From Alphaproteobacteria bacterium (GTDB taxonomy: Bacteria > Pseudomonadota > Alphaproteobacteria > Rhodobacterales > Rhodobacteraceae): a stretch of 64,000 bases of DNA. The stretch is taken from positions 248,001 through 312,000 of the forward strand of contig JAUIFH010000001.1 of NCBI GenBank assembly GCA_030429495.1. Reading direction: 5' to 3'. Position numbers and translations under genes: made by a program. The notes under the pieces are model-generated. The model was not told the origin of the DNA. It searched no databases and worked only from the letters and a program-made list of their open reading frames with translations. Positions 3,145 through 60,070 of this stretch are shown here, piece by piece. Position 1 is the stretch's first letter. Every line of letters begins with the position of its first letter.

Positions 3145-3651
3145 TTACTCTGCCGCGTCACGCTTGGGCAGAACCCAGCCCTTGCGCGGGAAGTGGCACG
3201 TGTAGCCGTTGGGGAAACGCTCCAGGTAGTCCTGATGCTCAGGCTCGGCTTCCCAGAAATCGCCGGCTTCCTTCACCTCGGTCACGACCGGACCCGGCCA
3301 GATGCCCGACGCGTTCACATCGGCAATCGTCTCTTCGGCGATGCGCTTCTGCTCGTCGTTCACATAGTAGATGCCCGAGCGGTAGCTGGTGCCGCGGTCG
3401 TTGCCCTGCCGGTTCAGCGTGGTCGGATCGTGGATCTGGAAGAAGAATTCCAGAAGCGCCCGATAGCTGGTCTTCGCGGGATCGAACGTGATTTCTATCC
3501 CTTCCGCATGGGTGCCGTGGTTGCGGTAGGTGGCGAATTTCACGTCGCCGCCGGTATAGCCGACCCGGGTCGATTCGACGCCCGGCAGGCTGCGGATCAG
3601 GTCCTGCATACCCCAGAAGCAGCCGCCGGCCAGAACTGCACGTTCAGTCAT
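3145..3651 (-). CDS. msrA: Peptide-methionine (S)-S-oxide reductase MsrA
   Basis: This enzyme reduces the S epimer of methionine sulfoxide in proteins and free methionine. The 168-residue product has the diagnostic GCFWG motif at residues 10-14 with catalytic Cys11, followed by conserved GYTGG and RNHGTHAEG segments and a C-terminal FPNGYTCHF stretch that holds a further cysteine. The ATG at 3651 lies one base after the msrB stop, so the two are co-transcribed. A longer open frame continues upstream to 3852 but is only the msrB region read in another phase. No signal peptide, so it is cytoplasmic. Family assignment is firm. Confidence 0.96.
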
Positions 3652-3652
3652 G

Positions 3653-4096
3653 TTATTTCTCCTCCACTTGATCGAGGTAATCGCCGTAGCCTTCCTCCGC
3701 CATCTTGCCTTTCGGCACGAAGCGCAGCGAGGCGGAATTGATGCAGTAGCGCAGCCCGCCCATGTCCCACGGACCGTCGTTGAAGACGTGGCCCAGATGG
3801 CTGTCGCCGTGTTTGGAGCGGACTTCGACCCGCACCATGCCGTAAGAGGCATCGTGATGCTCGGTCACGTTCGTCTTGTCTATCGGCTTTGAGAACGCCG
3901 GCCAGCCGCAGCCGGAGTTGAACTTGGCCGAAGAGGCAAAGAGCGGTTCGCCCGAGACGATGTCGACATAGATGCCCGGCTCGAAATGCTTGTCGTATTC
4001 GCCGGTAAAGGCGCGTTCGGTCCCGCTTTGCTGCGTCACGCGGTACTGTTCCGGCGTAAGGCGGGAAACGGCATCGTCTGTTTTTGCGTACTTCAT
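3653..4096 (-). CDS. msrB: Peptide-methionine (R)-S-oxide reductase MsrB
   Basis: This enzyme reduces the R epimer of methionine sulfoxide and complements MsrA. The 147-residue protein contains GCGWPAF at 62-68, the [12 protein letters not shown] block and [13 protein letters not shown] with the catalytic cysteine at 118. The two CxxC pairs of zinc-binding MsrB proteins are absent, so this is a metal-free form. ATG at 4096 with GGGGAGAG upstream. It is the first gene of the msrB-msrA-FAD-redoxin run. The 109-base gap to the upstream LysR gene contains an A/T-rich patch near 4127-4134 that could hold the promoter, but I see no convincing pair of boxes. Confidence 0.96.
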
Positions 4097-5172: not shown

Positions 5173-5910
5173 TCATGCCCGCTCGTCCGTCTGCATGCGC
5201 CGTTCCAGCCAGCGAACGCCGGCCGAGACGATCAGGATCAGGACGAGGTATTCCAGCACGAGAACCGTGTAGATTTCGAGCGGCCGGTATTCCGTCACCA
5301 CAAGCTCATTCGCCTTCCGCGTCAGTTCCTGCATTCCGATGACCGAAACCAGCGACGACATCTTCAGCATGTAGACCAACTGGTTGCCGAGCGCGGGCAG
5401 GATGCGGCGGATCGCCTGCGGCAGGATCACGTAGCGCATCGTGTCGGTGTAGTTGAGCGAGACGGAATACGCCGCCTCGTACTGACCCTTCGCGATGGAC
5501 TGGATGCCGGCGCGGAAGATCTCTGCCTCGAACGCGCTGTCGGACAGGGCCAGCGCGATCACGCCCGCCCAGAATACGCTGATGGTGAGGCCGGTGAGCT
5601 GTGGCAAACCGTAATAGACCCAGAGGATCAGGACCAGGATCGGGACGGCGCGGACCAGTTCGACATAGATGCGGCTCGCCGTGCGCATCGCGCGGTTCGA
5701 CGATAGGCCCGGCAATGCGACCAGCAGCCCGACGACGATCGAGATCAGGATTGCCGTCAGGGACAGAAGCACCGTGTATTTCAGCCCGCTGAGAAGGAAA
5801 CTCAGGTTGGTCCAGCCCGCCTTGGTCTGCGGATTGACGACATACCAGCCCCAGTTCGCCGAACAGGCGGAAAGCGTGAAGGCGAGCATGACAAGAAGGA
5901 ACCGGGCCAT
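5173..5910 (-). CDS. Amino-acid-type ABC transporter permease (HisM/GlnP family)
   Basis: A 245-residue inner-membrane permease of the polar amino acid uptake family. After an N-terminal hydrophobic segment it has the typical LLSGLKYTVLLSLTAI start of the transport domain, RAVPILVLILWVYYGLP in the middle, and the EAA loop (YEAAYSVSLNYTDTMRYV, then LPQAIRRILP) that docks the ATPase. The N-terminus is odd: residues 4-16 read as a short hydrophobic run ending in a lipobox-like LSAC, which could be a signal sequence or simply the first helix. ATG at 5910 with AGGAG seven bases upstream. It follows the ATPase gene by nine bases and is co-transcribed with it. Only one permease gene is present, so it may form a homodimer. 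Confidence 0.9.
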   Translation of the reverse strand: MARFLLVMLAFTLSACSANWGWYVVNPQTKAGWTNLSFLLSGLKYTVLLSLTAILISIVVGLLVALPGLSSNRAMRTASRIYVELVRAVPILVLILWVYYGLPQLTGLTISVFWAGVIALALSDSAFEAEIFRAGIQSIAKGQYEAAYSVSLNYTDTMRYVILPQAIRRILPALGNQLVYMLKMSSLVSVIGMQELTRKANELVVTEYRPLEIYTVLVLEYLVLILIVSAGVRWLERRMQTDERA

Positions 5911-5919
5911 CGCGCGCTC

Positions 5920-6672
5920 CTAGTGGTTGAGGATCTTTTGAAGGAAGTCCTTGCAGCGCGCGCTTTTCGGCGCGGTGAAGAACTCCTCGGGCGGCGCGGT
6001 CTCGACGATCTCGCCGTGATCCATGAAGACCATGCGGTCGGCGACCTTGCGGGCGAAGCCCATTTCGTGGGTGACGACGATCATGGTCATGCCGGTGCCG
6101 GCGAGTTCGACCATGACGTCGAGGACCTCGTTGATCATCTCGGGGTCGAGTGCCGATGTCGGTTCGTCGAAAAGCATGATCCTCGGCTCCATGCAGAGCG
6201 AGCGGGCGATGGCCACCCGCTGCTGCTGGCCGCCGGAAAGCTGGCGCGGATACTTGCCGGCCTGTTCCGGGATACGGACCCGCTCAAGGTACTTCATCGC
6301 GATCGCCCTTGCCTGCGCCGGGTCAAGACGGCGCGCCCGGGTCGGACCCAGCATGAGGTTTTCCAGAACCGTCAGATGCGGGAAAAGGTTGAACTGCTGG
6401 AACACCATCCCGACCTGATCACGCACCTTTCTTAGTGCGGCGACGCTTTGGCCGATCTGCACGCCATCGACCGTGATGACTCCGCTCTGGTAGGATTCGA
6501 GCCCGTTGATGCAGCGGATCAGCGTCGACTTGCCGGAGCCTGACGGCCCGCAGACGACGATGCGCTCTCCCGATGCCGCCTTGAAGTCTATGGATTTCAG
6601 GACCTGGAATTCCCCGAAGTATTTCGACACGCTGTCGAAACGAATGATGGCGTCGGGTGCATCGGGTGGCAT
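5920..6672 (-). CDS. Amino-acid-type ABC transporter ATP-binding protein
   Basis: A 250-residue GlnQ/HisP-type ATPase that powers the importer formed with the permease at 5173-5910 and the binding protein at 6783-7559. Walker [10 protein letters not shown] is at 42-50, the signature LSGGQQQR at 145-152, Walker B IMLFDE at 165-170 and the switch histidine at 202. It is transcribed divergently from the binding protein gene. Residues 144-217 differ by only one residue from the corresponding part of the second ATPase at 11180-11926, while the rest is much less alike. That makes it look like a mosaic gene. Confidence 0.93.
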
Positions 6673-6736
6673 TTCATACGCTCCGGCAGGCTTCGCTTCG
6701 GTATTTCTTGCACGGCGGGCGGTTTGACGCCACAGT

Positions 6737-6754
6737 AATATGACTGCACATATT
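6737..6754. promoter_or_regulatory. Inverted repeat in the divergent ABC promoter region
   Basis: AATATG and CATATT form perfect 6-base arms around ACTGCA, between the ATPase start (6672) and the binding-protein start (6783). A TTGACG at 6724-6729 precedes it and could be a -35 box for the rightward gene. The repeat is a reasonable operator for one of the nearby regulators; binding is inferred only. Confidence 0.4.
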
Positions 6755-6782
6755 CCAATGGATCATCTGGGGAGATCTTGAG

Positions 6783-7559
6783 ATGAAATTGCTGAAGGCA
6801 TGTGTCGCCGCGTTGGCTCTGGCGCTGGCGGCACCGGTTGCAGAGGCGCAATCCGCGCTGCAGGACATCCTGAACAACGGCATTCTGAAGGTCGGGACGA
6901 CGGGCGACTGGAATCCGATGACCATGAAGGACCCGGCCACCAACTCGTATACCGGCTACGACATAGATGTGATGACGGCGCTGGCCGCCGATCTTGGGGT
7001 CGAGGTCGAATTCGTTCCGGCCGACTGGAAGACGCTTGTCAGCGGCGTTACCGCCGGCAAGTATCACATGACCGGCTCGGCCTCCATCTCTCCGGCACGG
7101 GCCAAGGCGGCCGGCTATTCGCAAAGCTACTTCTCGCTGGCCACCGTTCCGCTGATCAACAAGGCGGATGCCGAAAAATTCAAGGACTGGGCGGATCTTG
7201 ACGCGCCCGAAGTCGTGGTTGCCGCGACCCTGGGTACGACCCAGGAAAAGCAGGTGAAGGAATTCTTCCCCAACGCGCAGTACAAGATCGTCGAGGCCCC
7301 GGCACGGGACTTCCAGGAGGTTCTGGCAGGCAGGGCACAGGCGCACATCACGTCGAACGTGGAAGCGAACAAGCTGGTGGCGCAGTATCCCGAACTGATG
7401 ATCGTGCCGGTTTCCGCGCCGAGGGCGCGCACTCCGGTCGCGATGCTGCTGCCGCAGGGCGATCAGGTCTGGATCAACTACGTCAACACCTGGATCACGC
7501 TGAAGGAGGAGGCAGGCTTCTTCGACGAACTCGGCACGAAGTGGAACCTCGGCAACTGA
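6783..7559 (+). CDS. Periplasmic substrate-binding protein of ABC importer 1
   Basis: A 258-residue family 3 solute-binding protein. A Sec signal peptide covers residues 1-22 with probable cleavage after AEA. The mature part opens with ILKVGTTGDWNPMTMKD, the usual ligand-pocket strand, and continues with GYDIDVMTALAADLGVEVEFV. This opening is also seen in periplasmic cyclohexadienyl dehydratases (PheC) that share the fold, so an enzymatic role cannot be excluded from sequence. The linked ATPase and permease genes favour transport. ATG at 6783 with GGGGAGAT upstream. A hairpin at 7567-7585 directly follows the stop codon and probably protects the message, as is common for abundant binding proteins. 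Confidence 0.88.
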   Translation: MKLLKACVAALALALAAPVAEAQSALQDILNNGILKVGTTGDWNPMTMKDPATNSYTGYDIDVMTALAADLGVEVEFVPADWKTLVSGVTAGKYHMTGSASISPARAKAAGYSQSYFSLATVPLINKADAEKFKDWADLDAPEVVVAATLGTTQEKQVKEFFPNAQYKIVEAPARDFQEVLAGRAQAHITSNVEANKLVAQYPELMIVPVSAPRARTPVAMLLPQGDQVWINYVNTWITLKEEAGFFDELGTKWNLGN

Positions 7560-7566
7560 TGACGGC

Positions 7567-7585
7567 GGGGCGCTGAAGGCGCCCC
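7567..7585 (+). terminator. Hairpin after binding protein 1
   Basis: GGGGCGC and GCGCCCC pair perfectly around a 5-base loop, starting eight bases after the stop codon. No U-run follows and the next gene begins at 7594, so it more likely stabilises the upstream message or gives partial termination than full termination. Confidence 0.5.
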
Positions 7586-7593
7586 ATCTACCC

Positions 7594-8232
7594 ATGCTCA
7601 CACTTTATGCCCTGCCGGTCAGCCTCTACTCGGCCAAGACGCGGATCGCCCTGCGCCACAAGCGGCTTGCCTGGCGCGAGGAGCTTCCGCCCGGCGGCTA
7701 TGGTGCCGCCGAGTACAAGAGAATCGTTGCTTCGGGAAACCTTCCCGCGTTGGTAGACGATGGGTTCATCATTGCCGATTCCGAAGTGATCGCGGAGTAT
7801 CTGGAGGAGCGGTTTCCCGAGCCTCCGCTATTGCCGGCTGACCCACGCGGCCGCGCGCGGATGCGCGAACGGTCGCGGTTTCACGACACGCGGCTTGAAC
7901 CCGCACTCCGCGTGTTGTTCGGAAATCTTGATCCCGACAGTTGCGACGACGACCTGTACGCACGCCAGTCCCATGCCCTGACCGAGCGTCTCGGGCAGCT
8001 TGCGCGGATTATAGATGCGGCGTCGGACCTGCCATTCGGCCTTGGCGATTGCGGGCTGCCCGTCACCTTCGCATGGATCGACGCGCTGACGCCGCGGCTG
8101 GGACTTGATGTGGCTTGGCCGGAAGAGCTGCGCCGCTATCAAACGAGGACGGCCGCGGCGCCCGCCGTCGCGGAGGAATTCGCGACCTACCTGCCCATCC
8201 TGCATCAGTGGCTCGACGCGAAGGAAGGATAG
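7594..8232 (+). CDS. Glutathione S-transferase family protein
   Basis: A 212-residue GST-fold protein. The N-terminal thioredoxin-like domain begins MLTLYALPVSLYSAKTRIAL, and the glutathione-binding ADSEVIAEYLEERFPEP segment is near residues 60-76. A helical C-terminal domain follows. In catabolic loci such proteins often act as glutathione-dependent isomerases (maleylacetoacetate or maleylpyruvate type) rather than detoxifying transferases. It sits between a binding-protein gene and a creatininase-family gene on one transcript, which favours a pathway role. The start at ATG 7594 is tight against the upstream hairpin, and no strong ribosome-binding site is visible. Confidence 0.82.
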   Translation: MLTLYALPVSLYSAKTRIALRHKRLAWREELPPGGYGAAEYKRIVASGNLPALVDDGFIIADSEVIAEYLEERFPEPPLLPADPRGRARMRERSRFHDTRLEPALRVLFGNLDPDSCDDDLYARQSHALTERLGQLARIIDAASDLPFGLGDCGLPVTFAWIDALTPRLGLDVAWPEELRRYQTRTAAAPAVAEEFATYLPILHQWLDAKEG

Positions 8233-8235
8233 GCC

Positions 8236-9006
8236 ATGCGGCTTGACCTGATGACATGGATGGAGGTCGAGGCGTATGTCGCAGGTGGTGGCGGGATCAT
8301 CCTGCCTGTCGGCTCGACCGAGCAGCACGGGCCGATGGGCCTGATCGGCACCGACGCACTTTGCGCCACGGTCATCGCCGAACGCGCGGCGGACCTGTGT
8401 GACGCCGTCGTTGCGCCGACGCTGGCGCTGACACCTGCCCCGTTCAACATGGGCTTTCCCGGTACGATCTCGATATCCGAGGAGACGTTCGCGGCGCTGG
8501 CGGGCGAGACGATCGACGCCCTGTCCCATCACGGGTTTCGCTGCCTCTACATTCTCAACGCGCATGGCGCCAACCTCTCACCGCTTCGCGCATTGGTTGA
8601 GGCGCGGCCGGGCCTTGCGATCCGGCTGTGCAGCTGGTGGGATTTCGACGCTGTCAACGCGTTGCGGCAGGAATGGTACGGCGACTGGGAAGGGATGCAC
8701 GCGACGCCTTCGGAGATTGCCATCACGCAGGCTGCCTTTCGCCAACCGACCGTTCCGGACGCCGCGCGCACAGCGCCACGCGCCCTGTCGCGCGACTATA
8801 TCCGCGACCATGCCGGTGACCGGCATGGCCCCCCGGACGAGCATCGCCGCGATTTTCCCGATGGGCGCGTCGGATCGCACTCCGCGCTGGCGCGGCCGGA
8901 CCATGGCGAGGCGCTTATCGCCGCAGCCGCCGCCGCAATCGCGCACGACTACATGCTGTTCCACGCGTCAGACGTCAGAGAAGAACCTGAACCATCGCAC
9001 CGCTGA
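8236..9006 (+). CDS. Creatininase-family metal-dependent amidohydrolase
   Basis: A 256-residue protein of the creatininase family, which cleaves cyclic or linear amide C-N bonds with divalent metals. The metal site is recognisable: GSTEQHGPMGLIGTD gives Glu29, His31 and Asp40, and NAHGAN gives His110. A later HATPSE (His155, Glu160) is also typical. The glutamate that follows the conserved histidine in true creatininase is not present, so creatinine itself is an unlikely substrate. ATG at 8236 with AAGGAAGGA upstream, three bases after the GST stop. Its last 32 bases overlap the convergent Rieske ferredoxin gene. With the GST and oxidative genes nearby, a ring-opened amide intermediate is a plausible substrate. 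Confidence 0.88.
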   Translation: MRLDLMTWMEVEAYVAGGGGIILPVGSTEQHGPMGLIGTDALCATVIAERAADLCDAVVAPTLALTPAPFNMGFPGTISISEETFAALAGETIDALSHHGFRCLYILNAHGANLSPLRALVEARPGLAIRLCSWWDFDAVNALRQEWYGDWEGMHATPSEIAITQAAFRQPTVPDAARTAPRALSRDYIRDHAGDRHGPPDEHRRDFPDGRVGSHSALARPDHGEALIAAAAAAIAHDYMLFHASDVREEPEPSHR

Positions 9007-9292
9007 CGCGGGCCTCGATCATGCGCAGTTTCACGCGTGCGGGGGCGGCCAGGGCCTCTCCTGTCCGGGCGTCGAACAGGCCCTGATGCAAAGGGCATTC
9101 GATGTGGCGTCCGTCGAAATACCCGTCGCAGAGATTGGCCGCGCCATGCGTGCAGCGGGCCATCGAAACCGTGATCCCGTCGGCGGTGTCATAGACGGCA
9201 AGCTCGCGCGTGCCGAGCCGGACCGGCGTGACATCGCCGGTTTCAAGCTCCGAAACCGCGATCAGGTCCTGCCAATTCCGCTCACGGCTCAC
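8975..9292 (-). CDS. Rieske-type [2Fe-2S] ferredoxin
   Basis: A 105-residue soluble Rieske protein. Cluster ligands are seen as CTHG (Cys47, His49) and CPLHQG (Cys66, His69), with the short spacing of ferredoxin components of oxygenases. The start is GTG at 9292, overlapping the stop of the desaturase-like gene (GTGA); a longer frame extends upstream but only reads the desaturase gene in another phase. The coupling strongly suggests it is the electron donor of that membrane enzyme. Its reductase is not encoded next to it. Its 3' end overlaps the convergent creatininase gene by 32 bases. Confidence 0.9.
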   Translation of the reverse strand: MSRERNWQDLIAVSELETGDVTPVRLGTRELAVYDTADGITVSMARCTHGAANLCDGYFDGRHIECPLHQGLFDARTGEALAAPARVKLRMIEARVSGAMVQVLL

Positions 9293-10257
9293 TGCGGTGC
9301 TCCTGCGGTCTGGTCCACCCGCGGCGTCCGTCCGGTCAACTGCCGCAGAATGTCGATGTGCGCGCCGAGATATCCGCGCTTTTCCACATGGATGTAGCCG
9401 TCGAGTATCCGGTGCAGTTTCGGCAACGCGTGATATGGCACCGACGACGCGTAGTGGTGTTCGGCGTGGTAGTTCATGTTCCAGCACAGGAAGCGGATCG
9501 GCCACGAGACGAGGTTGGTGCGCGTGTTCTCTTTCATGTCACGGGTCATGGGCCGCCCGACATGCTCGGTCATGCGGATCGCGCGCATCACGGGTTCGCC
9601 CAGAATGACCGGCAGCCACCAGTACCAGACCGGCGCCCACCAGTTGAAGGCGATGCAAGCGACAAGGATGGTGATGTAGCCCAGTGCCATGATCCGCGCT
9701 TCCAGGAATACGGTGCGGTGCTCTTCCTTCGGAATGAAGCGCATCTCGTCCGCGCTCAGGCGGCCGAGGATGTGGCGTCCGAGTTCCGTGAACTTCGTCC
9801 GCCAGTAGGGAATGGACGAGATGTACCAGAGGTACCCACCCAGCGATGACGGCAGCGGGATCATCTCCGGGTCCTCGCCGTGAAGCTGGGTGTAGGTGTG
9901 GTGGTCGCAATGTTCGTAGCGGAAGAACCGGTGCGGCAGCATGATCACGAAGCCGCAGATATTGCCCGCAACGTCGTTGAGCCAGCGCGTGCGGAACACC
10001 GTATAGTGCACGCATTCGTGCTGAAGCGAGAAATGATGGACGAGGACGATGCCGTGCAGGAACATCGCTGGCCAGATCCAGAAAGTTCCCATCGACATCC
10101 AGATCAGCGTGCCCGTTCCGGTAAGGAGGAGCAGCCACAGCGCCAGATGAATGAACGCGGGCCGGTCGGACCGCTGCATCAACGCCTTCAGCTCACTTCG
10201 CGTCAGAACGCCGTCGTTCAGTGCCTGGGTGATGGGGGTGAGTACATTCTGGGTCAT
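9289..10257 (-). CDS. Membrane di-iron oxygenase / fatty-acid-desaturase-like protein
   Basis: A 322-residue integral membrane protein with the three histidine boxes of the desaturase/hydroxylase superfamily: HECVH at 80-84, HCDHH at 116-120 and HAEHH at 264-268. Hydrophobic segments near 37-58, 60-78, 98-110 and 190-222 fit four transmembrane spans. The chosen ATG at 10257 has GGGAGG six bases upstream; a longer frame to 10293 has no such site. It is followed by, and translationally coupled to, a Rieske ferredoxin and preceded by an XRE-cupin regulator. Such pairs can hydroxylate or desaturate small molecules as well as acyl chains. Given the catabolic neighbours, a small substrate is more likely than a membrane lipid, but this is inference. 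Confidence 0.85.
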   Translation of the reverse strand: MTQNVLTPITQALNDGVLTRSELKALMQRSDRPAFIHLALWLLLLTGTGTLIWMSMGTFWIWPAMFLHGIVLVHHFSLQHECVHYTVFRTRWLNDVAGNICGFVIMLPHRFFRYEHCDHHTYTQLHGEDPEMIPLPSSLGGYLWYISSIPYWRTKFTELGRHILGRLSADEMRFIPKEEHRTVFLEARIMALGYITILVACIAFNWWAPVWYWWLPVILGEPVMRAIRMTEHVGRPMTRDMKENTRTNLVSWPIRFLCWNMNYHAEHHYASSVPYHALPKLHRILDGYIHVEKRGYLGAHIDILRQLTGRTPRVDQTAGAPQ

Positions 10258-10319
10258 GGTGCCTCCCGTGCGGATGACCCAATATGCACCCATAAGAAAA
10301 ATTTGTCACCAGAAGAAAA

Positions 10320-10931
10320 TCACGTCGAATCCGAAGCCCTCGGTCTCGCGATCGCGACCATGAACCGGACGACCCGTGTGGAAAGCGCCTGGGGGCCGTG
10401 CGGTGCCTCGGCGTCGAAGGTCACGGAATCGCCGGGCGCCATTTCGAACATGTCGTCGCCGATCCGATAGGACATGGCGCCTTCGATCATGTGTATGAAT
10501 TCGATACCCGGGTGCTGGAACAGCGGTTGACCCGCCGCCGATTCCTCAAGCGTGATGATGTGGCTTTCGAACTCGGTGCTAGCAGTATCGACTTTGCCAA
10601 TCATCTTGTAGTCATGCCCGTAGGTCGTGCCCGAGCGGCGTACACGGATGCCTTCGCCCGCACGCACGAAGGTCACGTCGCGCCGCTCGACCGTGGATGC
10701 GAAGAGGTTGGCGATCGGGATGCCGATCGCGGCGGCGAGCGCGTCGAGCGTTGCAAGCGATGCCGACACCCGGCCGCGCTCGATCTTTGAGATCATCGTG
10801 GTTGATACGCCGGAGCGTTCCGACAAGGCCGCAAGCGTCAGTTCGCGCGCCGCGCGCGCCTGGCGGAGGGCATCGCCGATGGACTGTTCGAGCGGCGTGC
10901 GACGAGGGGAAGTGCGTTCTGGCAGGGTCAT
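10320..10931 (-). CDS. XRE-family regulator with C-terminal cupin domain
   Basis: A 203-residue two-domain regulator. Residues 16-75 form an HTH_3 domain (GDALRQARAARELTLAAL, then SGVSTTMISKIERGRVSASL). Residues 115-195 form a cupin with HPGIEFIHMIEGAM and APGDSVTFDAEAPHGPQ, the usual small-ligand sensor. This family often controls catabolic or osmolyte genes in response to a small molecule. ATG at 10931; a longer TTG-started frame to 10958 is possible. The gene lies 62 bases upstream of the desaturase gene in the same orientation and diverges from the second ABC importer. It is therefore well placed to control both. Confidence 0.9.
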   Translation of the reverse strand: MTLPERTSPRRTPLEQSIGDALRQARAARELTLAALSERSGVSTTMISKIERGRVSASLATLDALAAAIGIPIANLFASTVERRDVTFVRAGEGIRVRRSGTTYGHDYKMIGKVDTASTEFESHIITLEESAAGQPLFQHPGIEFIHMIEGAMSYRIGDDMFEMAPGDSVTFDAEAPHGPQALSTRVVRFMVAIARPRASDST

Positions 10932-11009
10932 TGCGGCAGGATAGTTACAACGCGGCAAACCACAAACCGAATCGCATCGCCGGTTTCCTTGGCACTGGGA
11001 CGCTTCGGG

Positions 11010-11037
11010 TTGCCGCCCGACTCTGCTTGGCTATGAT
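11010..11037 (+). promoter_or_regulatory. Candidate sigma-70-type promoter for ABC importer 2
   Basis: TTGCCG (11010-11015) and TATGAT (11032-11037) are spaced by 16 bases in the 248-base region between the XRE-cupin gene and the second importer. This is the longest non-coding stretch in the window. It would give a leader of about 135 bases containing the GTATATAC site at 11112. Confidence 0.4.
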
Positions 11038-11111
11038 TATGAGCGGACAGGCGCGGGATCGTCGCATTAGGAGGCGTCGAGGCGCATCTGCCCCGCTTCG
11101 GCGGTAAATAA

Positions 11112-11119
11112 GTATATAC
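11112..11119. promoter_or_regulatory. HutC-type operator (GTATATAC) before importer 2
   Basis: The palindrome GTATATAC fits the GTnTAnAC consensus of the HutC subfamily of GntR regulators. It sits 61 bases before the importer-2 ATPase gene. The 12-base context AAGTATATACAT occurs again upstream of the HutC-type regulator gene at 16094, which is the strongest reason to take it as that protein's site. Confidence 0.55.
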
Positions 11120-11179
11120 ATATTCACGACACGCGCTACTATGTGGATTTAACGGGTGTCCATCGGGGAAGCAGGGTCG

Positions 11180-11926
<747 letters not shown>

Positions 11927-11927
11927 G

Positions 11928-12767
11928 TTGAGCGCGACGGCAGAGAATGCAGTCGAAACATCGCCGCGCCGGCGCACCAGCCTGCGCAAGATGATCGGGT
12001 CGCGCCCGGTCTCGGTCGCGATCTACCTTGCCGTGATGTGGGTCATCGTCGCCACTGCGCTGAAGGGCGCCGAGGCGATGGGCTACAACTGGCAATGGTA
12101 CCGAATCCCTCGCTACTTCTACGAAGCAACCGAGGGCGGCATCGTCCTAGGTGAAATTCCGTGGGGCCTCGTCGGGACGCTCGCGCTTTCGGGAACAGCC
12201 TTTCTTCTCGCGGTGGCGATCGGCTTGATTGTCGCGCTCTTGCGCCTGTCGGACCTGATTGTCGGGCGCTGGGTCGCGCGCGGGTTTCTCGAACTCGTCC
12301 GCAATACGCCCCTGCTCGTCCTGCTCTATGTTTTCTACTATGTTTTCGGCCCGATCTTCGGGCTGAACCGCTACACGGCCAGCGTCGGATGCCTTGCCGT
12401 CTTTCACGGCGCACTGATTTCCGAGATCTTCCGTGCAGGCATCAATGCGGTGCCGAGAGGGCAGTGGGAGGCCGCTAACTCAATCGGCATGACCGGCTGG
12501 CAGATCTATCGCTACATCGTGCTGCCGCAGTCGATCCGCTTCATGCTGCCGCCGATGACCGGCGAGGTGGTGAACATGATCAAAAGTTCGGCGATCGTCA
12601 GCGTGATCGCCGTCGCAGAGCTCACCACGGTCGGCCGCAATATTATCTCCGACACGTACATGAGCTTTGAGATCTGGTTCACGATCGCCGCCGTCTACAT
12701 GGTCGTGACACTCATCATATCGACCGGCGCCACCGTCCTGGAAAGACGGTACGCTGTTCGGGACTGA
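11928..12767 (+). CDS. Amino-acid-type ABC transporter permease
   Basis: A 279-residue inner-membrane permease of the polar amino acid family. A basic cytoplasmic N-terminus is followed by a first transmembrane segment near residues 31-47, a periplasmic stretch, then the core domain with FLELVRNTPLLVLLYVFYYV and the EAA loop WEAANSIGMTGWQIYRYIV before LPQSIRFMLPP. The start is probably TTG at 11928, with GGAG seven bases upstream and the ATPase stop only two bases before; a much longer in-frame extension lies inside the ATPase gene and is not real. It pairs with the permease at 13690-14568, which has the same architecture, to give a heterodimeric channel. Confidence 0.87.
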   Translation: MSATAENAVETSPRRRTSLRKMIGSRPVSVAIYLAVMWVIVATALKGAEAMGYNWQWYRIPRYFYEATEGGIVLGEIPWGLVGTLALSGTAFLLAVAIGLIVALLRLSDLIVGRWVARGFLELVRNTPLLVLLYVFYYVFGPIFGLNRYTASVGCLAVFHGALISEIFRAGINAVPRGQWEAANSIGMTGWQIYRYIVLPQSIRFMLPPMTGEVVNMIKSSAIVSVIAVAELTTVGRNIISDTYMSFEIWFTIAAVYMVVTLIISTGATVLERRYAVRD

Positions 12768-12805
12768 TCCCAACCCAATAAGCAACCGCAACAGGGAGTA
12801 ACACA

Positions 12806-13639
12806 ATGAAACTGACAAGACGGATGCTCAATACAGCGCTGGGTGCGGTCGTGGCCGCGGCCCTTGCGTTGCCCGCCGCAGCGCAGGAGGCAGCTCAGGC
12901 GCTGTCGAAGGAAAGCGTGATCGAAACGATCAAGCAGCGTGGCGTGATCAAGATCGGCCTATCGCTGTTCGTGCCGTGGTCGATGCGCGACAAGAACGGC
13001 GAGCTGATCGGCTTCGAACTCGACGTCGGACGGCAGCTGGCCGAGGACATGGGCGTGGATGTCGAATTCGTGCCGACCGCCTGGGACGGCATCATCCCGG
13101 CCCTCGTTTCGGGCAAGTTCGACGTGATCATTTCGGGCATGTCCATCACGGCGGAACGGAACCTGACGGTCAACTTCTCTGACCCCTACGCGTATTCCGG
13201 CCTGACCATCCTTGCCAACAAGGCGATGACCGAAGGCTACACGCTGGACGACTTCAACAAGCCCGAAGTGACCTTCGCCGCCCGGCGCGGCGCAACACCG
13301 GTTGTGGTCATCCAACGGATCTTCCCCGACGCGACGCTTCTTCAGTTCGACGAGGATGGTGCAGCGACGCAGGAGGTTCTGAACGGAAACGCCCATGCGA
13401 CGATGTCCTCCGAACCGACGCCGTCGCGCGAGGCGCGCAAGCACCCCGAAACTCTCAGCGTTCCCTTCGATCAGGTTTGGGATGCACGCGGTGAGGCCTT
13501 CGCCTACCGCAAGGGCGACCCGGACGCGACGAACTTCTTCAACAACTGGATCGGTACGCGCTGGCGGACCGGCTGGCTGAAGGAACGTCACGACTACTGG
13601 TTCAAGGGTAACGAATGGGAACCGATGGTCGAACAGTGA
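12806..13639 (+). CDS. Periplasmic substrate-binding protein of ABC importer 2
   Basis: A 277-residue family 3 solute-binding protein. The signal peptide covers about residues 1-26 and ends ALPAAAQ. The mature protein has VIKIGLSLFVPWSMRDKNGE, GFELDVGRQLAEDMGVDVEF and SGMSITAERNLTVNFSDPY, which are standard for amino-acid binders; the arginine in the TAERN segment usually holds an alpha-carboxylate. That points to a carboxylated, amino-acid-like ligand. ATG at 12806 with AGGGAG upstream. It sits between the two permease genes, and a strong hairpin follows its stop codon. Confidence 0.92.
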   Translation: MKLTRRMLNTALGAVVAAALALPAAAQEAAQALSKESVIETIKQRGVIKIGLSLFVPWSMRDKNGELIGFELDVGRQLAEDMGVDVEFVPTAWDGIIPALVSGKFDVIISGMSITAERNLTVNFSDPYAYSGLTILANKAMTEGYTLDDFNKPEVTFAARRGATPVVVIQRIFPDATLLQFDEDGAATQEVLNGNAHATMSSEPTPSREARKHPETLSVPFDQVWDARGEAFAYRKGDPDATNFFNNWIGTRWRTGWLKERHDYWFKGNEWEPMVEQ

Positions 13640-13647
13640 CCTGAGCG

Positions 13648-13673
13648 GGCGCCCGGCCTTCGTGCCGGGCGCC
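13648..13673 (+). terminator. Hairpin after binding protein 2
   Basis: A perfect 10-base stem (GGCGCCCGGC / GCCGGGCGCC) with a 6-base loop CTTCGT, followed by TTT, begins nine bases after the binding-protein stop. The second permease gene starts at 13690, so this is an intra-operon partial terminator or mRNA stabiliser that would raise binding-protein levels over the permease. Confidence 0.65.
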
Positions 13674-13689
13674 TTTCGCCGGAGGGGTG

Positions 13690-14568
13690 ATGCACAAGAC
13701 GCGGAAAAGATTGCACTGGCTCGATTGGCTGATCCTCGCGGTTCTCGCCGGGTTCGTCTTCGTGATCTGGTATCGCATCTCCGGCACGCTGAACTACAAG
13801 TGGCAGTGGGAGAGAATCCCGAACTACATCCTGCGCTGGGACGAGGAAGACGGCCGCTGGGTCGCGAATCTGCTCTTGCAGGGGCTGATCACCACGATCC
13901 GCATCTCGATCTATGCCAGCATCCTTGCCTTGATCCTCGGCACGATCCTCGGCATCGCGCGCTGCGCCGAGAACCTCGCGATCCGAATGCTGGCGCGGAC
14001 CTACCTGGAGTTTCTGCGGAACATCCCGCCCGTTGTCGTAGTTTTCATCTTCTTCTTCTTCCTGTCCGAACAGTTCATCACCGCGCTGAACATCGAGGGC
14101 TGGGCACGCGGCATCGCCAGGCAGGAAAACAACGGTGTGTGGGAATTCTTCTTCGGCGACATGCGGCTGTTTCCGTCGATGATCTCGGGAACTATCGTTC
14201 TCGCGCTTTTTGAAAGCGCGTTCGTCGGCGAAATCGTCAGGGCCGGCATCCAGTCGATACCGCGCGGCCAGCGCGAGGCGGCGCGGTCCATCGGCATGAC
14301 CTGGCTGGACGAGATGCGGTTCATCATTCTGCCGCAGGCGATGCGCAAGGTGCTTCCGCCGCTGTCGAACCAGTTCATCTCGCTCATCAAGGACAGCTCG
14401 ATCATCTCGCTGATCTCGGTGCAGGAACTGACCTACAAGACTGTGGAACTGGTTGCCTCCACGCGGATGATCTTCGAGGCGTGGCTGACGACAGCGGCCT
14501 TCTACTTCATTCTCTGCTTCGGCCTGTCGCTTCTGTTCAGACGCCTTGAGCGGGAAGGCCGGGCCTGA
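13690..14568 (+). CDS. Amino-acid-type ABC transporter permease 2
   Basis: A 292-residue permease of the polar amino acid family. One transmembrane segment near residues 13-32 is followed by a periplasmic stretch and the core transport domain, with FLRNIPPVVVVFIFFFFL and the EAA loop REAARSIGMTWLDEMRFIIL before PQAMRKVLPPL. ATG at 13690 with GGAGG four bases upstream; an adjacent GTG at 13687 is less likely. It is the second half of the heterodimeric channel of importer 2. Its last 32 bases overlap the convergent MATE gene. Confidence 0.9.
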   Translation: MHKTRKRLHWLDWLILAVLAGFVFVIWYRISGTLNYKWQWERIPNYILRWDEEDGRWVANLLLQGLITTIRISIYASILALILGTILGIARCAENLAIRMLARTYLEFLRNIPPVVVVFIFFFFLSEQFITALNIEGWARGIARQENNGVWEFFFGDMRLFPSMISGTIVLALFESAFVGEIVRAGIQSIPRGQREAARSIGMTWLDEMRFIILPQAMRKVLPPLSNQFISLIKDSSIISLISVQELTYKTVELVASTRMIFEAWLTTAAFYFILCFGLSLLFRRLEREGRA

Positions 14569-15922
14569 ACAGTCCGCCGATCAGACGTCGGGCGGTCCGA
14601 TCGGCAACGAAGATCGACAGGGCGAGGCCGGTCGTCACTGCGGCTGCGATACCAAACCAGACACCCCAGGTGCCAAGGTCGAGAAGCCGCGCGAATATCC
14701 AGCAGAAGAACGCGACGGCGATACCCTGCCGGTAAAGGCCGATCCAGACAGTTGCAATCGGTCTCTTGAGCGCCTGAAGGAAAGAGTTCATGGCGAACAG
14801 GACGATATAGACCGGCAGGATGAACCCGTCGACATGCAGGTAGTCGCCGCCGATCCGGATGACGTCGGGGTCGGAGGTGAAGACGGCTATCAGCGGGCGT
14901 GCGGCGAACCAGAGGAAAACCGATCCGCAGAGCATGATCGCCACGCCCGCCTTGCAGCAGAAGGCGAGCGCCTCGCGCACACGGTCGTGGTTGCCGGCGC
15001 CGAAGTTCTGTGCGGCGATCGGGAGAAGGGCGCCAGTCAGCCCGAAGCCCGGAAGCAGGATCAGCTGCTCGATCCGCAGCCCTATGCCGTAGGCGGCGAG
15101 GGCGGCGGGACCATAACTCTTGAGGTAGTACTGCACCACGAAGCCGGCGATCAGCATGATCATCATCGCGAAGGTCGTCGGAAGTGCCTGCGCCGTGATT
15201 TCGCGATAGGTCGAGAGGTCAGGTCGCCAGAGGGCGGGGCTGTCATGCGCCATCAGTTCAGAACGGAACACCCGCCACAGGATGAACGCCATGACGCCCG
15301 TCTGGCTCACCAGCGTCGACAGGGCGATTCCGTTGAACCCAATGCCGGGGACAAGGCTGGGCACCCCGAAGATGAACAGGGGATTGAGCGCGAGGTTGGC
15401 GAAGAACGCCGCGATCTGGGCGCGCTTCATCGATTGCGTATCGCCAAGTGCGCTGAGGATGCCGTTGGCGCCGAAGGCCAGAAGGAAGGGGGTCGTCGCG
15501 AACAGCATGACATTCATATAGGTCACGGCCGCGTCACGATACGCCCCCGGCTCTGACACAAGCGCCAGCATTGCCGGAGAGCCCTTGATCCCGCTGAGGG
15601 CGAGCAGAACGGCGACGATCGTTCCGAAACCAATTCCCTGGCAGGCAAGCCGCTTCGCGCCGGTGAAATCCTCCGCACCTATCGCGTTTCCGATCAGTGC
15701 GCTCATCGCATTGCCGAGGCCGATGCCGAAGGCGATCAGGATGAAGAACACCTGGAACGTGATGGCGAGGCCCGCCTGGGCATCGGTCGAAAGCAGGCCC
15801 GCGAACCAGACATCGACGACGTTGTAGAGCGTGGTGAAGACCATGCCGATCGCCGCTGGAATTGCGAGCGCACGGAAATGCCCCGGGATCGAACCCTGTC
15901 TGAGACTGCGCAGTCGCGTCAT
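14537..15922 (-). CDS. MATE-family multidrug/metabolite exporter
   Basis: A 461-residue membrane protein of the MATE (multi antimicrobial extrusion) family with about twelve predicted spans in two related halves. Segments such as GMVFTTLYNVVDVWFAGLLS at the first helix and GNAMSALIGNAIGAEDF match the family's conserved N-lobe. MATE proteins use sodium or proton gradients to export cationic or small organic compounds. Its position between the importer operon and the GntR regulator suggests export of the same or a related compound, or of a toxic intermediate. It is transcribed divergently from the GntR gene across a 171-base region. Confidence 0.92.
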   Translation of the reverse strand: MTRLRSLRQGSIPGHFRALAIPAAIGMVFTTLYNVVDVWFAGLLSTDAQAGLAITFQVFFILIAFGIGLGNAMSALIGNAIGAEDFTGAKRLACQGIGFGTIVAVLLALSGIKGSPAMLALVSEPGAYRDAAVTYMNVMLFATTPFLLAFGANGILSALGDTQSMKRAQIAAFFANLALNPLFIFGVPSLVPGIGFNGIALSTLVSQTGVMAFILWRVFRSELMAHDSPALWRPDLSTYREITAQALPTTFAMMIMLIAGFVVQYYLKSYGPAALAAYGIGLRIEQLILLPGFGLTGALLPIAAQNFGAGNHDRVREALAFCCKAGVAIMLCGSVFLWFAARPLIAVFTSDPDVIRIGGDYLHVDGFILPVYIVLFAMNSFLQALKRPIATVWIGLYRQGIAVAFFCWIFARLLDLGTWGVWFGIAAAVTTGLALSIFVADRTARRLIGGLFRPGLPAQGV

Positions 15923-15996
15923 GAACCTGTCTCGATATCAGCTGCCGCTGCGGATGCCCTGGCAACGCCGGCAGACTATACAGGCCCTGCCATTAA

Positions 15997-16004
15997 GTAT
16001 ATAC
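15997..16004. promoter_or_regulatory. HutC-type operator (GTATATAC) before the GntR gene
   Basis: The same GTATATAC palindrome, within the same 12-base AAGTATATACAT, lies 90 bases before the GntR start and 75 bases before the divergent MATE start. It fits the HutC consensus GTnTAnAC and suggests autoregulation together with control of the exporter. Confidence 0.55.
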
Positions 16005-16093
16005 ATTTAAAGGGTAACGGAAGGCCGGCAACCGTGCGTCCCGTATCACGCAACCGCGAGGCTGTCGCCTCGGAATTCGGGTAAGGGCGGAAG

Positions 16094-16810
16094 GTGAGTA
16101 GGAACACGAGTCAACCGCTCTACAAGCACGTCAAGAAGCAGATGCTCGACCGGATTCGGTCGGGCAAGCTCGGCTTTGGCGCGCTCGTGCCGTGCGAGGC
16201 AGATCTGGCCGAAGAATTCGGCTGTGCGCGCCTGACGGTGCATCGTGCGCTGCGTGAACTTGCCGACGAAGGGTTCCTGGAACGCCGTCGCCGCGCAGGA
16301 ACACGTGTCGCCCAACGCGCAAGCCGAGGGTTTCAGCTTTCAGTTTCGCGCGTCGACGAAGAGGTTTTCGCCCGCGGAGAAGTCTATCGCTACGAGCTGA
16401 TCACCCGGGTTGCGGCGACTGCGCCCAATCCGGTCGCGTCTGCCTTCGGCATCGCGCCCGGGGCCGAGATGCTGCATGTCGTCTGCAGGCACTGGTCGAA
16501 TGACCGGGTCTTCCAGACCGAAGACCGCTGGATCAACACCGATGCGATTCCCGCAGCCGCCGATCAGCCGTTTCGCCATGCAGGCCCAAACAGGTGGCTT
16601 CTCGACAATGTCCCATTCTCCGAGGTTCGGCACGAGATCGCGGCGGTCGCGGCGGGGCCCGAAGAGGCGCGGCTTCTCAAGCTGGATGCCGGGCATCCCC
16701 TGCTTCAGATCCGGCGCGAGACGGGGTGGCAGGGTCGTTCAGTCACCGTTGCCGTTCTGAACCATCCCGGCGAACTCTTCACACTCACGTCCCAGCCCCA
16801 GGCGGTGTGA
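16094..16810 (+). CDS. GntR-family regulator, HutC subfamily (UTRA domain)
   Basis: A 238-residue repressor-type protein. Residues 5-75 are the winged helix (PLYKHVKKQMLDRIRSG, then CARLTVHRALRELADEGFLE). Residues 95-235 are the UTRA effector domain, with the common VCRHWSNDRVFQTEDRWI and LLQIRRETGW blocks. This domain architecture defines the HutC subfamily, whose ligands are often histidine-pathway intermediates, sugars or amino-acid derivatives. The start is GTG at 16094. It probably binds the two GTATATAC sites at 11112 and 15997. Its last 26 bases overlap the convergent LysR gene. Confidence 0.92.
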   Translation: MSRNTSQPLYKHVKKQMLDRIRSGKLGFGALVPCEADLAEEFGCARLTVHRALRELADEGFLERRRRAGTRVAQRASRGFQLSVSRVDEEVFARGEVYRYELITRVAATAPNPVASAFGIAPGAEMLHVVCRHWSNDRVFQTEDRWINTDAIPAAADQPFRHAGPNRWLLDNVPFSEVRHEIAAVAAGPEEARLLKLDAGHPLLQIRRETGWQGRSVTVAVLNHPGELFTLTSQPQAV

Positions 16811-17717
16811 ACCGCGGTTGCCGCTGCGCCTCGCGCACCAGCCAGTCGCGGAACAGCCGGATCGGAGCGATGTCGAGCGCGCGCTCAGGGCAGACGAACC
16901 AGTAGGCGAAGTTGGATCGGGCGATCAGCGGCAGCGGCATGACGAGGGTTCCGGCCCTGAGTGCGTCGATCACCAGCGGTTCCCGTCCAAGCGCGACACC
17001 CGCGCCTTGAACGGCGGCCTGAATCGAGAGGTTTGACTGGCCAAACCGCCTGAGCCGTTGCGACGCCGGTAGGGCAATGCCGGTTTGCTCTGCCCAGAAT
17101 TCCCAGGTGGGGGGGCGGCCCCTTTGCGACATGTGCAAGTCGATCAAGCGGGTGTGGTCGGCAAGGTCTTCAGGTCGCCGGATGCCAGTCCCGTCTTTCA
17201 GAAGGGACGGCGCGCAGACCGGGAACACACGCTCCCCCAGCAGTTTCTCGCCATGCATCCGCGCCGGCGCAGTGGCGCCGTAACGGATGAAGACATCGGC
17301 CAGCCCCGCTTCGACCGGGTTCTCGTCGATCCGCGTAGAGATGGATACCGGAATCTCGGGATGGTCGTGATCGAAGTTCAGCAGTCTCGGGAACAGCCAG
17401 TTGACGGCGAAGCCTGGCGGACAGGCGACATTGATCTTCGATACCCGGTGAACCGACGCGCGCATCCCGTCGACAACGTCACCGATCCGGCCAATCCCCT
17501 CCGCCACAGCTTCCGCCAGCCGAAGGCCATCCGGTGTTGCCGCCGATTGCCGCCCGCCGCGGACGACCAGCGTCCGGCCGGTCCAATCCTCCAGCGCGCG
17601 GACATGCTGGCTGACAGCGCTTTGGGTCATGCCCAACTCCTCCGCTGCCCGGCTGAAGCTTTTCAGACGGGTTACGGCTTCCAGCGCGCGCAGGGCGGGG
17701 TAGGGGAGTGTGCGCAT
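16785..17717 (-). CDS. LysR-family regulator, GcvA-like
   Basis: A 310-residue LysR-type regulator of the GcvA group, which is marked by the PYPALRALEAVTRLKSFSRA start and SAVSQHVRALEDWTGRTL helix. The effector domain has the ADVFIRYG and LPLIARSNFAYWFVCPE segments seen in that group. It diverges from the NicX-like and Rieske oxygenase genes and probably controls them. A 15-base palindrome with the T-N11-A form of LysR sites lies just before its start. Confidence 0.92.
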   Translation of the reverse strand: MRTLPYPALRALEAVTRLKSFSRAAEELGMTQSAVSQHVRALEDWTGRTLVVRGGRQSAATPDGLRLAEAVAEGIGRIGDVVDGMRASVHRVSKINVACPPGFAVNWLFPRLLNFDHDHPEIPVSISTRIDENPVEAGLADVFIRYGATAPARMHGEKLLGERVFPVCAPSLLKDGTGIRRPEDLADHTRLIDLHMSQRGRPPTWEFWAEQTGIALPASQRLRRFGQSNLSIQAAVQGAGVALGREPLVIDALRAGTLVMPLPLIARSNFAYWFVCPERALDIAPIRLFRDWLVREAQRQPRFTPPGAGT

Positions 17718-17720
17718 AAA

Positions 17721-17735
17721 ATTAGTAAAACTAAT
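17721..17735. promoter_or_regulatory. LysR-type operator (T-N11-A palindrome)
   Basis: ATTAGTAAAACTAAT has perfect 6-base arms around AAA, and it meets the T-N11-A rule for LysR binding sites. It is three bases upstream of the LysR gene and 36 bases before the divergent NicX-like gene. This is the expected place for autoregulation and control of the neighbour. Confidence 0.65.
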
Positions 17736-17770
17736 CTCTCACATTATGTAAACGAAATTGTCGTAACAGC

Positions 17771-18922
17771 GTGGCGCGCTATTTTGAACCCATCAGCATT
17801 GGCGGGTTCGGTATGTCGGCAGACGGGGCGGCGCTTGGCGCCGCGATGGACAATCTTCTTGGTCATTGTGCCGGGCTCTCAGCCGGATCGCGCCTTGTCG
17901 TGATCAGGGAACGCGCCAGCGAACGGTTCTACGACCCGGCCGTGGCCGAGGCGGTCGCGCGCATGGCTGCCGAACGCGATATTCACACCACGCTCTGCGA
18001 TGTACCCTTCTGCGAAGAGGTGAGCGGGCTTGATGCCGAACTTGCCGATCTGATGGCAGAAGCCGATTGCACGATCTTCTTCGCCCGGCTCGGCGATCAG
18101 GTCAGGTTCCGCGCCCTGCCGAAATCTACCCGCGCGATCGTGAGCTACGCGCTCGACCTCGACATGCTGACTTCCGCTTTCGGAACCGCGCATTTCGCCG
18201 CGTTCGTGAAGCTGAAATACGCGATCGACGCGATGATCGAAACGGCGGGTGAAATCCGTGTGACCTGCCCGCGCGGCACCGATTTCATCGGGCCGGGCGT
18301 GGCGTTGGGCGGTAAGCAGGACGTCTCGATTATCCGGTTCCCGATGTCCGTCTTCGCGCCGGTGCCGGCGGCAGGCTTTGCCGGCCGCGCCGCGCTTGCC
18401 GGCTTTCTCGTCGGGACCGGTTCGCGCTACTACAGCCCGTATGGGCGCGCGCTGCAACGCCGGATCATCGCCCATTTTGCCAGCGGGCGACTGACCGGCT
18501 TCACGGGCGATGCCCACGACGTGCGCGCGGCCGAGGCGCATTACGACGATATATCCGCGCGGTTCGACATTGACCGCAATGCCGTTCATTCCTGGCATGC
18601 CGGCATCCATCCCGGCTGTGCGTTCCGATCCCCCGTCGATGCCGATTTCCTGCGATGGAGCGGCGGTGCGTTCGGAAACCCGCGCCTTCTGCATTTTCAC
18701 ACCTGCGGCGCCTACGCGCCCGGCGAGATCTCGTGGAACATTCTCGACCCGACGGTCCGGATCGATGGCGTCGCGGTCTGGGAAGACGGCCGGCTCCACC
18801 CGGAGCGTGTGCCGGGCGGGGCGCAGATCCTTGCAGACTACCCCTGCGCGGCTGCCGCATTCGCGGAACCGGAAAGCGAAGTCGGGTTCAATACCGACTA
18901 TATTCAACGTATCGATGCCTGA
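17771..18922 (+). CDS. M29 aminopeptidase / NicX-like fold protein
   Basis: A 383-residue protein that I place, with caution, in the clan that holds M29 aminopeptidases and the non-haem iron enzyme 2,5-dihydroxypyridine 5,6-dioxygenase (NicX). Visible hints are the N-terminal domain (CAGLSAGSRLVVIRE), a C-terminal HSWHAGIHPGC cluster and a late LLHFHTCGAYAPGE segment where metal ligands of this clan lie. No other family suggests itself. The start is GTG at 17771, with no good ribosome-binding site; ATG 17813 is an alternative that would lose the first 14 residues. Followed 63 bases later by a Rieske oxygenase, it may cleave the ring that oxygenase hydroxylates. Confidence 0.55.
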   Translation: MARYFEPISIGGFGMSADGAALGAAMDNLLGHCAGLSAGSRLVVIRERASERFYDPAVAEAVARMAAERDIHTTLCDVPFCEEVSGLDAELADLMAEADCTIFFARLGDQVRFRALPKSTRAIVSYALDLDMLTSAFGTAHFAAFVKLKYAIDAMIETAGEIRVTCPRGTDFIGPGVALGGKQDVSIIRFPMSVFAPVPAAGFAGRAALAGFLVGTGSRYYSPYGRALQRRIIAHFASGRLTGFTGDAHDVRAAEAHYDDISARFDIDRNAVHSWHAGIHPGCAFRSPVDADFLRWSGGAFGNPRLLHFHTCGAYAPGEISWNILDPTVRIDGVAVWEDGRLHPERVPGGAQILADYPCAAAAFAEPESEVGFNTDYIQRIDA

Positions 18923-18985
18923 GCGGTATTCGGACAATGCGAGCGTTGCCGCCCCAGGCGACCGGCATCAGGAAAGGACGAAGCG

Positions 18986-59986: not shown

Positions 59987-60070
59987 TGGTACCCGCGGCC
60001 GGACTTGAACCGGCACGGCCGAAGCCTAGGGATTTTAAGTCCCCTGTGTCTACCATTCCACCACGCGGGC
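59987..60070 (-). tRNA. tRNA-Leu(UAA)
   Basis: Minus-strand class II tRNA with an encoded CCA end. The acceptor stem pairs GCCCGCG with CGCGGGT (one G-U at the tip). The anticodon stem is GGGGA/TCCCT around the loop CTTAAAA, giving anticodon TAA. A variable arm with CTAGG and CTTCGG lies before the T stem GCCGG/CCGGC with loop TTCAAGT. All expected leucine tRNA features are present. Confidence 0.95.

Follow-up and report, generated by a model that had tools for sequence, protein, structure and literature searches.

We analysed a 64,000-nucleotide stretch of an Alphaproteobacteria bacterium genome (the window; positions 248001-312000 of contig C6; genome of 3.83 Mb in 26 contigs) and found a catabolic locus at window positions 5173-20026, whose NicX-like protein, oxygenases, amide hydrolase, and importers form the subject of this study. 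This locus may import and degrade a small zwitterionic N-methylated N-heterocycle, with a pyridinium carboxylate, for example homarine, as the most likely candidate; we put the probability of this reading at about one half. The first-pass annotation had named six gene types for 6783-10931 (a desaturase-like oxygenase, a Rieske ferredoxin, a creatininase-family hydrolase, a glutathione S-transferase [GST], an XRE-cupin sensor, and importers). All six were present, each above a Pfam cut-off, and their assignment to a locus that catabolizes a small nitrogen-containing compound is supported. The boundaries proved too narrow; the set extends from importer 1 at 5173 to 20026 and also includes importer 2, a MATE protein, HutC-type and LysR regulators, a NicX-like protein, and a Rieske oxygenase. 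The suggested opening of an N-methylated N-heterocycle was strengthened because the NicX-fold protein and the Rieske oxygenase, both missed before, lie in the locus and because a partner SoxBDAG operon occurs elsewhere in the genome.

The proposed ring-cleavage dioxygenase, the NicX-like protein, is encoded at 17771-18922 (plus strand) and gave no Pfam or NCBIfam match. Its structural model was assigned the NicX/M29 fold. In hhalign, a seven-member NicX profile matched the profile of the NicX-like protein with a probability of 95% and an E value of 1.7e-8 (one pair compared). The match between the NicX-like profile and a single NicX sequence was weak, and a PDB sequence search with the NicX-like profile returned no match. 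NicX is 2,5-dihydroxypyridine 5,6-dioxygenase (7cn3 and 7cup), to which the window protein is 14% identical. H265, H318, and D320 of NicX, which we take to be its metal ligands, were invariant in seven NicX relatives, and H276 of the window protein aligned with H265 in two of three alignments. Genes neighboring NicX in locus L130 encode a hydrolase, an Asp/Glu racemase, and an amidohydrolase, none of which was recognised at the window locus. In all 12 matching plasmid records, members of the NicX-like family bear the annotation "hypothetical protein", so that a function for the window member would re-annotate the family. The same genome carries a second NicX-like paralogue with 35% identity (L146:9574-10650; C19:69670-70620), which adjoins genes of an MttB-family methyltransferase (PF06253), an XRE-cupin regulator, and an ABC importer. 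This regulator shares 80% identity with the XRE-cupin regulator of the Sox locus described below.

The Rieske oxygenase gene (18986-20026, plus strand; VanA_C type, PF19112, 165.9 bits) follows the NicX-like gene, and a LysR regulator gene (16785-17717, minus strand; PF03466, 96 bits) lies beside the two. Among solved chains, the best match of the oxygenase was 7qwt (E 6e-45), a chain listed with no functional name, followed by DdmC, a dicamba O-demethylase (3gb4; E 5e-42), SxtDIOX (6wnc; E 7e-24), SxtT (E 4e-23), and, as a more remote relative, the methylxanthine N-demethylase NdmA (6ick; E 4e-17). In comparison with DdmC, SxtDIOX, and NdmA, the window oxygenase has no reductase gene beside it.

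We compared neighborhoods in the best 80 of 164 stretches encoding a relative of the desaturase, with flanks of up to 10 kb. By their record titles these were mostly from Rhodobacterales, with Granulosicoccaceae, Rhizobiaceae, Marinobacter, and others, and many were metagenome-assembled genomes. The FA_desaturase-family membrane di-iron oxygenase (9289-10293, minus strand; PF00487, 132.7 bits; start probably near 10257 judging from homologues) is followed by a gene of a 105-amino-acid Rieske [2Fe-2S] ferredoxin (8975-9292, minus strand; PF00355, 58 bits). The GTG start of the latter at 9292 overlaps the desaturase stop codon (GTGA), suggesting coupled translation. A Rieske ferredoxin gene lay directly downstream of the desaturase gene in 76 of the 80 loci (exceptions, L032, L035, L038, and L039). 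The earlier proposal that the di-iron oxygenase has a coupled Rieske donor is supported. The histidine boxes (H92/H96, H128/H131/H132, and H276/H279/H280) were invariant in 28 aligned sequences (the window protein and 27 relatives), including two with an identity of about 35%. The desaturase and the ferredoxin form one unit resembling MocD/MocE, not acyl desaturases. mocDEF is part of rhizopine catabolism according to the excerpted text of PMC10107442, and MocD converts the methylated rhizopine 3-O-methyl-scyllo-inosamine (3-O-MSI) to scyllo-inosamine (SI) according to that of PMC2593844. The likeness to MocD/MocE consists in the order of an FA_desaturase-family oxygenase and a small Rieske ferredoxin and in the three histidine boxes; the window desaturase is 34.3% identical to that of a MocDEF-like operon of Rhizobium bangladeshense (L152), which is ordered desaturase, MocE-family ferredoxin, and FAD-oxidoreductase. 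However, the window ferredoxin scored 59.6 bits on TIGR02377, under the MocE-family cut-off of 136, and the 17 locus genes (15 of them Pfam-scanned) included no recognisable reductase or rhizopine/inositol gene, whereas the comparison loci carry a reductase gene (L152) or inositol genes (L150). Therefore, the window pair is only MocDE-like and was not assigned as a member. Such a pair is an example of genes annotated as fatty acid desaturases that occur within clusters for the catabolism of small molecules. The arginine hydroxylase GntB was rejected as the identity of the desaturase (30.5 bits; cut-off, 380), and a PDB sequence search with the window desaturase gave one match only (E 0.62). 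Another desaturase-Rieske ferredoxin pair, about 35% identical to the window pair, was seen at L091:7328-11570, flanked by genes annotated as 5-guanidino-2-oxopentanoate decarboxylase and Xaa-Pro peptidase family; these neighbors may hint that enzymes of this class act on guanidino compounds.

The six genes had been proposed to act as one unit. In the 80 desaturase loci, MATE genes were found in 27, LysR and SoxA genes in 21 each, HutC-like genes in 8, the creatininase-family gene in only 5, and the GST gene in only 3. In the 50 loci whose flanks exceeded 8 kb on both sides, the corresponding numbers were SBP2 (the solute-binding protein of importer 2), 34; NicX-like, 31; AhpD-like, 24; Rieske oxygenase, 24; MATE, 20; SoxA, 17; LysR, 17; XRE, 13; creatininase, 5; and GST, 3, and both NicX-like and SBP2 genes were present in 26 of the 31 loci with the former. 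In 15 other genomes of the same family, we examined the neighborhood of the creatininase-family gene. In eight of these loci (L106-L109, L113, L114, L117, and L119), the NicX-like and Rieske oxygenase genes are present but the desaturase gene is not, and L120 holds only the oxygenase gene. The stretches of the other six (L110, L111, L112, L115, L116, and L118) contain neither, and three of those genomes (G190, G095, and G136) have a NicX-like gene on another contig. We then counted co-occurrence in 148 family genomes besides our own, with a desaturase threshold of E 1e-60, weak NicX-like matches under 160 bits (G071, G113, and G170) taken as negative, and Fisher tests uncorrected for relatedness. 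The creatininase-family gene and the orthologue-level NicX-like gene each occurred in 15 genomes and were common to 11 (1.5 expected; p = 1.3e-10), while the desaturase gene occurred in 6, sharing 3 with each of these genes (0.6 expected; p = 0.014). These neighborhood and co-occurrence counts do not support a single unit and resolve the locus into two modules, which are often but not always together: module 1 comprises importer 1, GST, the creatininase-family protein, the NicX-like protein, the oxygenase, and LysR, and module 2 the desaturase, ferredoxin, XRE-cupin regulator, importer 2, and MATE.

In Paracoccus seriniphilus, a single 29 kb stretch carries genes for DoeB-like protein, RidA, importer 2, AhpD-like protein, oxygenase, LysR, NicX-like protein, GST, SoxBDAG, and PurU; the desaturase was not found within that stretch. 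DoeB-like (10) and creatininase-family (5) genes never occurred in the same locus among the 50 well-flanked loci, numbers too few to prove replacement. On a Leisingera plasmid (L133:1819-26033), a hut operon lies close to the NicX-like/oxygenase/creatininase core, and an LLM monooxygenase/flavin reductase/hydrolase/aldehyde dehydrogenase set is carried nearby. This set presumably resembles the trigonelline (tgn) genes; the family scan did not name it so, and it was given no weight.

The genome encodes four full-length SoxA-type proteins, of which the one at C6:157572-160469 shares 67% identity with the partner type seen near the relatives of the locus and the next 45%. Its operon (L145) holds all four Sox subunit types and is located about 91 kb from the window locus. 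In comparison with SoxBDAG sarcosine oxidase/MgdABCD, the alpha subunit scored 1195.9 bits, above the cut-off of 1164, whereas the beta subunit scored 479.7 bits, under the cut-off of 529. The Amidohydro_2 gene beside the Sox operon has a counterpart between the NicX-like and oxygenase genes in L057 (83% identity), and the same type adjoins the oxygenase gene in L106-L109 (58-62%). We infer from this that the Sox and Amidohydro_2 locus is the second half of the pathway. The surrounding stretch (L145:5889-14010; C6, about 153.9-162.0 kb) carries a MaoC-PTA fusion gene, an XRE-cupin gene, Amidohydro_2, and SoxGADB.

Importer 1 consists of a permease (5173-5910, minus strand; PF00528, 86 bits), which is kept next to the creatininase module in other genomes, an ATPase recognised by its open reading frame and translation and as a conserved neighbor (5920-6672, minus strand), and, diverging from these two genes, the family-3 solute-binding protein SBP1 (6783-7559, plus strand; above the Pfam cut-off). 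SBP1 is 53% identical to SAR11_1068 (5kkw), which was solved with N-methylpiperidinium sulfobetaine; the SBP1 model used had a mean predicted local distance difference test score of 82.8. A literature search for SAR11_1068 gave nothing relevant among the matches listed (20 of 38). Importer 2 follows the conserved order ATPase (11156-11926; PF00005, 130 bits), permease (11930-12767, recognised by its open reading frame and place in this order; start not fixed, the open reading frame opening at 11778), SBP2 (12806-13639; PF00497, 117 bits), and second permease (13687-14568; PF00528, 72.8 bits), all on the plus strand. The nearest solved chain of SBP2 was 9e2b (E 5.7e-86), tryptophan-bound by its title. 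Homarine is a phytoplankton osmolyte that Ruegeria pomeroyi draws down fast, with a mean lifetime of at most 2 h, in the excerpted text of PMC12817926. Papers giving the genes of a homarine operon were not found among the matches listed (e.g., the best 20 of 6,077). As far as sequence can tell, homarine would lead the candidate substrates, with odds that we put well short of even.

The observations cover the gene families, the NicX fold of a structural model, the gene neighborhoods, and the co-occurrence of the genes. From them we infer the following degradation route with its substrate, activities, order of reactions, and products. The two family-3 ABC importers would take up one substrate or two related ones, and oxygen would be inserted by the Rieske oxygenase, by the membrane di-iron enzyme with its coupled ferredoxin as donor, or by both. 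The NicX-fold protein would then use O2 to open the ring beside its nitrogen, giving an N-formyl or N-acyl amide, which the creatininase-family hydrolase, or possibly a DoeB/AstE-type deacylase in certain other genomes, would cleave. The final N-methyl amino acid, plausibly N-methylglutamate, would be N-demethylated by the SoxBDAG heterotetramer. In the case of a 5-hydroxylated N-methylpicolinate, NicX-type cleavage would give a product with the five carbons of the glutamate skeleton and an N-formyl-N-methyl group, and deformylation and reduction would give N-methylglutamate, a substrate of Sox/Mgd-type enzymes. Such a route agrees with the excerpted part of PMC13390433, according to which homarine catabolism involves the N-methylglutamate dehydrogenase Mgd. 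A bolder version, which we hold to be distinctly doubtful, is that a NicX-fold family with its own invariant histidines, whose scanned members matched neither Pfam nor NCBIfam, cleaves N-methylated pyridine rings and, with the Rieske oxygenase, the amide hydrolase, and a dedicated SoxBDAG, makes up a hitherto undescribed route by which marine pyridinium betaines are opened oxygenolytically, and to which the MocDE-type oxygenase adds a second, related substrate. With a gene set that opens rings like that of homarine, the turnover of these compounds could be followed in genome data.

Several observations weigh against degradation of an N-methylated N-heterocycle by this locus. No clear counterpart of the NicX H318-x-D320 motif was found in the NicX-like protein in the three alignments, and none of the 17 locus genes, 15 of which were scanned with Pfam, was recognised as a ferredoxin reductase for either Rieske protein. 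SxtDIOX and SxtT, which are hydroxylases, are also relatives of the window Rieske oxygenase, so that demethylation by it is only a candidate activity. Creatininase itself was rejected (TIGR04448, 82.5 bits; cut-off, 235), as was maleylacetoacetate isomerase (zeta GST) for the GST-fold protein (TIGR01262, 43.4 bits; cut-off, 171), and the isomerase role given to the latter in the first-pass annotation was thus not sustained. Any specificity assigned to the creatininase-family, GST-fold, or desaturase protein would come from superfamily membership only. Eight of the 50 well-flanked desaturase loci hold none of the NicX-like, oxygenase, SBP1, SBP2, SoxA, and AhpD-like genes. The ligand in 5kkw is in our judgement probably a crystallisation additive; therefore, this structure shows only that such a cyclic zwitterion fits. 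No gene was identified for the reductase of the last step, and the HutC-type regulator beside the locus could mean a histidine-type inducer.

A homarine catabolic pathway has reportedly been published by Ferrer-Gonzalez et al. in Nat Microbiol in 2026, and the locus would be merely a new member if it were that operon or a close variant, which we consider a tentative possibility. Mgd-type demethylation in that pathway, as far as the excerpts describe it, may have its likeness in the partner-type SoxBDAG of our genome; on the other hand, of 54 genomes from the genus to which L062 (Ruegeria halocynthiae) belongs, 12 carry the desaturase orthologue and 24 the NicX-like gene, and neither is universal there. 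It is rather unlikely that the two modules are independent systems lying side by side, one running from importer 1 through GST, the creatininase-family and NicX-like proteins to the Rieske oxygenase and the other from the desaturase and ferredoxin through XRE and importer 2 to MATE. The rarity of the creatininase-family gene near the desaturase and the eight creatininase loci described above, none of whose genomes has the desaturase at the threshold used, would suit such independence, but the NicX-like gene lies near the desaturase gene in 31 of the 50 well-flanked loci, mostly with SBP2, and the two genes share more genomes than expected. Equally unlikely in our view is a non-aromatic quaternary or N-methyl amino acid as substrate (proline betaine, hydroxyproline betaine, or similar), in which case the Rieske oxygenase and the MocDE-like pair would be an N-demethylase and a hydroxylase, SoxBDAG would take the last methyl group, and the NicX-like protein would be an M29-like hydrolase.

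A histidine-type imidazole (methylhistidine, hercynine, or similar) is an improbable substrate. The HutC-type GntR/UTRA regulator of the locus (16094-16810, plus strand) scored 259.1 bits on the HutC equivalog TIGR02018 (cut-off, 220) and is a second one, another HutC being encoded on contig C22; in Leisingera sp. M658, a hut operon lies about 6 kb from the core. However, family scans of the locus turned up no imidazole enzyme, 72 of the 80 desaturase loci have no HutC-like gene, and the modelled NicX fold suggests a pyridine enzyme. A lipid desaturase with unrelated neighbors, which only the family name FA_desaturase would recommend, is extremely improbable and was rejected on model scores and gene context: the window protein scored 28.3 and 34.1 bits on DesA and DesB (cut-offs, 500), its relatives include a MocDEF-like operon, and a Rieske partner accompanies nearly all of them. 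By the models compared, the enzyme would not be one that acts on fatty acyl chains.

The remaining genes of the locus encode the GST-fold protein (7594-8232, plus strand; PF13417, 62.7 bits), which reached no equivalog cut-off, the creatininase-family amidohydrolase (8236-9006, plus strand; PF02633, 164.5 bits; nearest solved chain, 3no4), the XRE-cupin regulator (10320-10958, minus strand, with an ATG near 10931; PF01381 and PF07883), and the MATE efflux protein (14537-15922, minus strand; PF01554, 169 bits). A scan for promoters and terminators gave 3 and 6 sites, compared with 3.1 and 9.6 in shuffled sequences. Right after the catabolic locus, at 20019-42000, the translations read as an apparent type VI secretion cluster with TssM/IcmF-like, VgrG-like, TssK, TssC, and OmpA-like proteins; the genes past 20026 were excluded from the locus, judging from these translations alone. 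At 3145-4096, the open reading frames of MsrA (PF01625) and MsrB (by reading) overlap at 3653-3852, likely reflecting start-site uncertainty. The sole tRNA found in the window was tRNA-Leu (taa) at 59987-60070.

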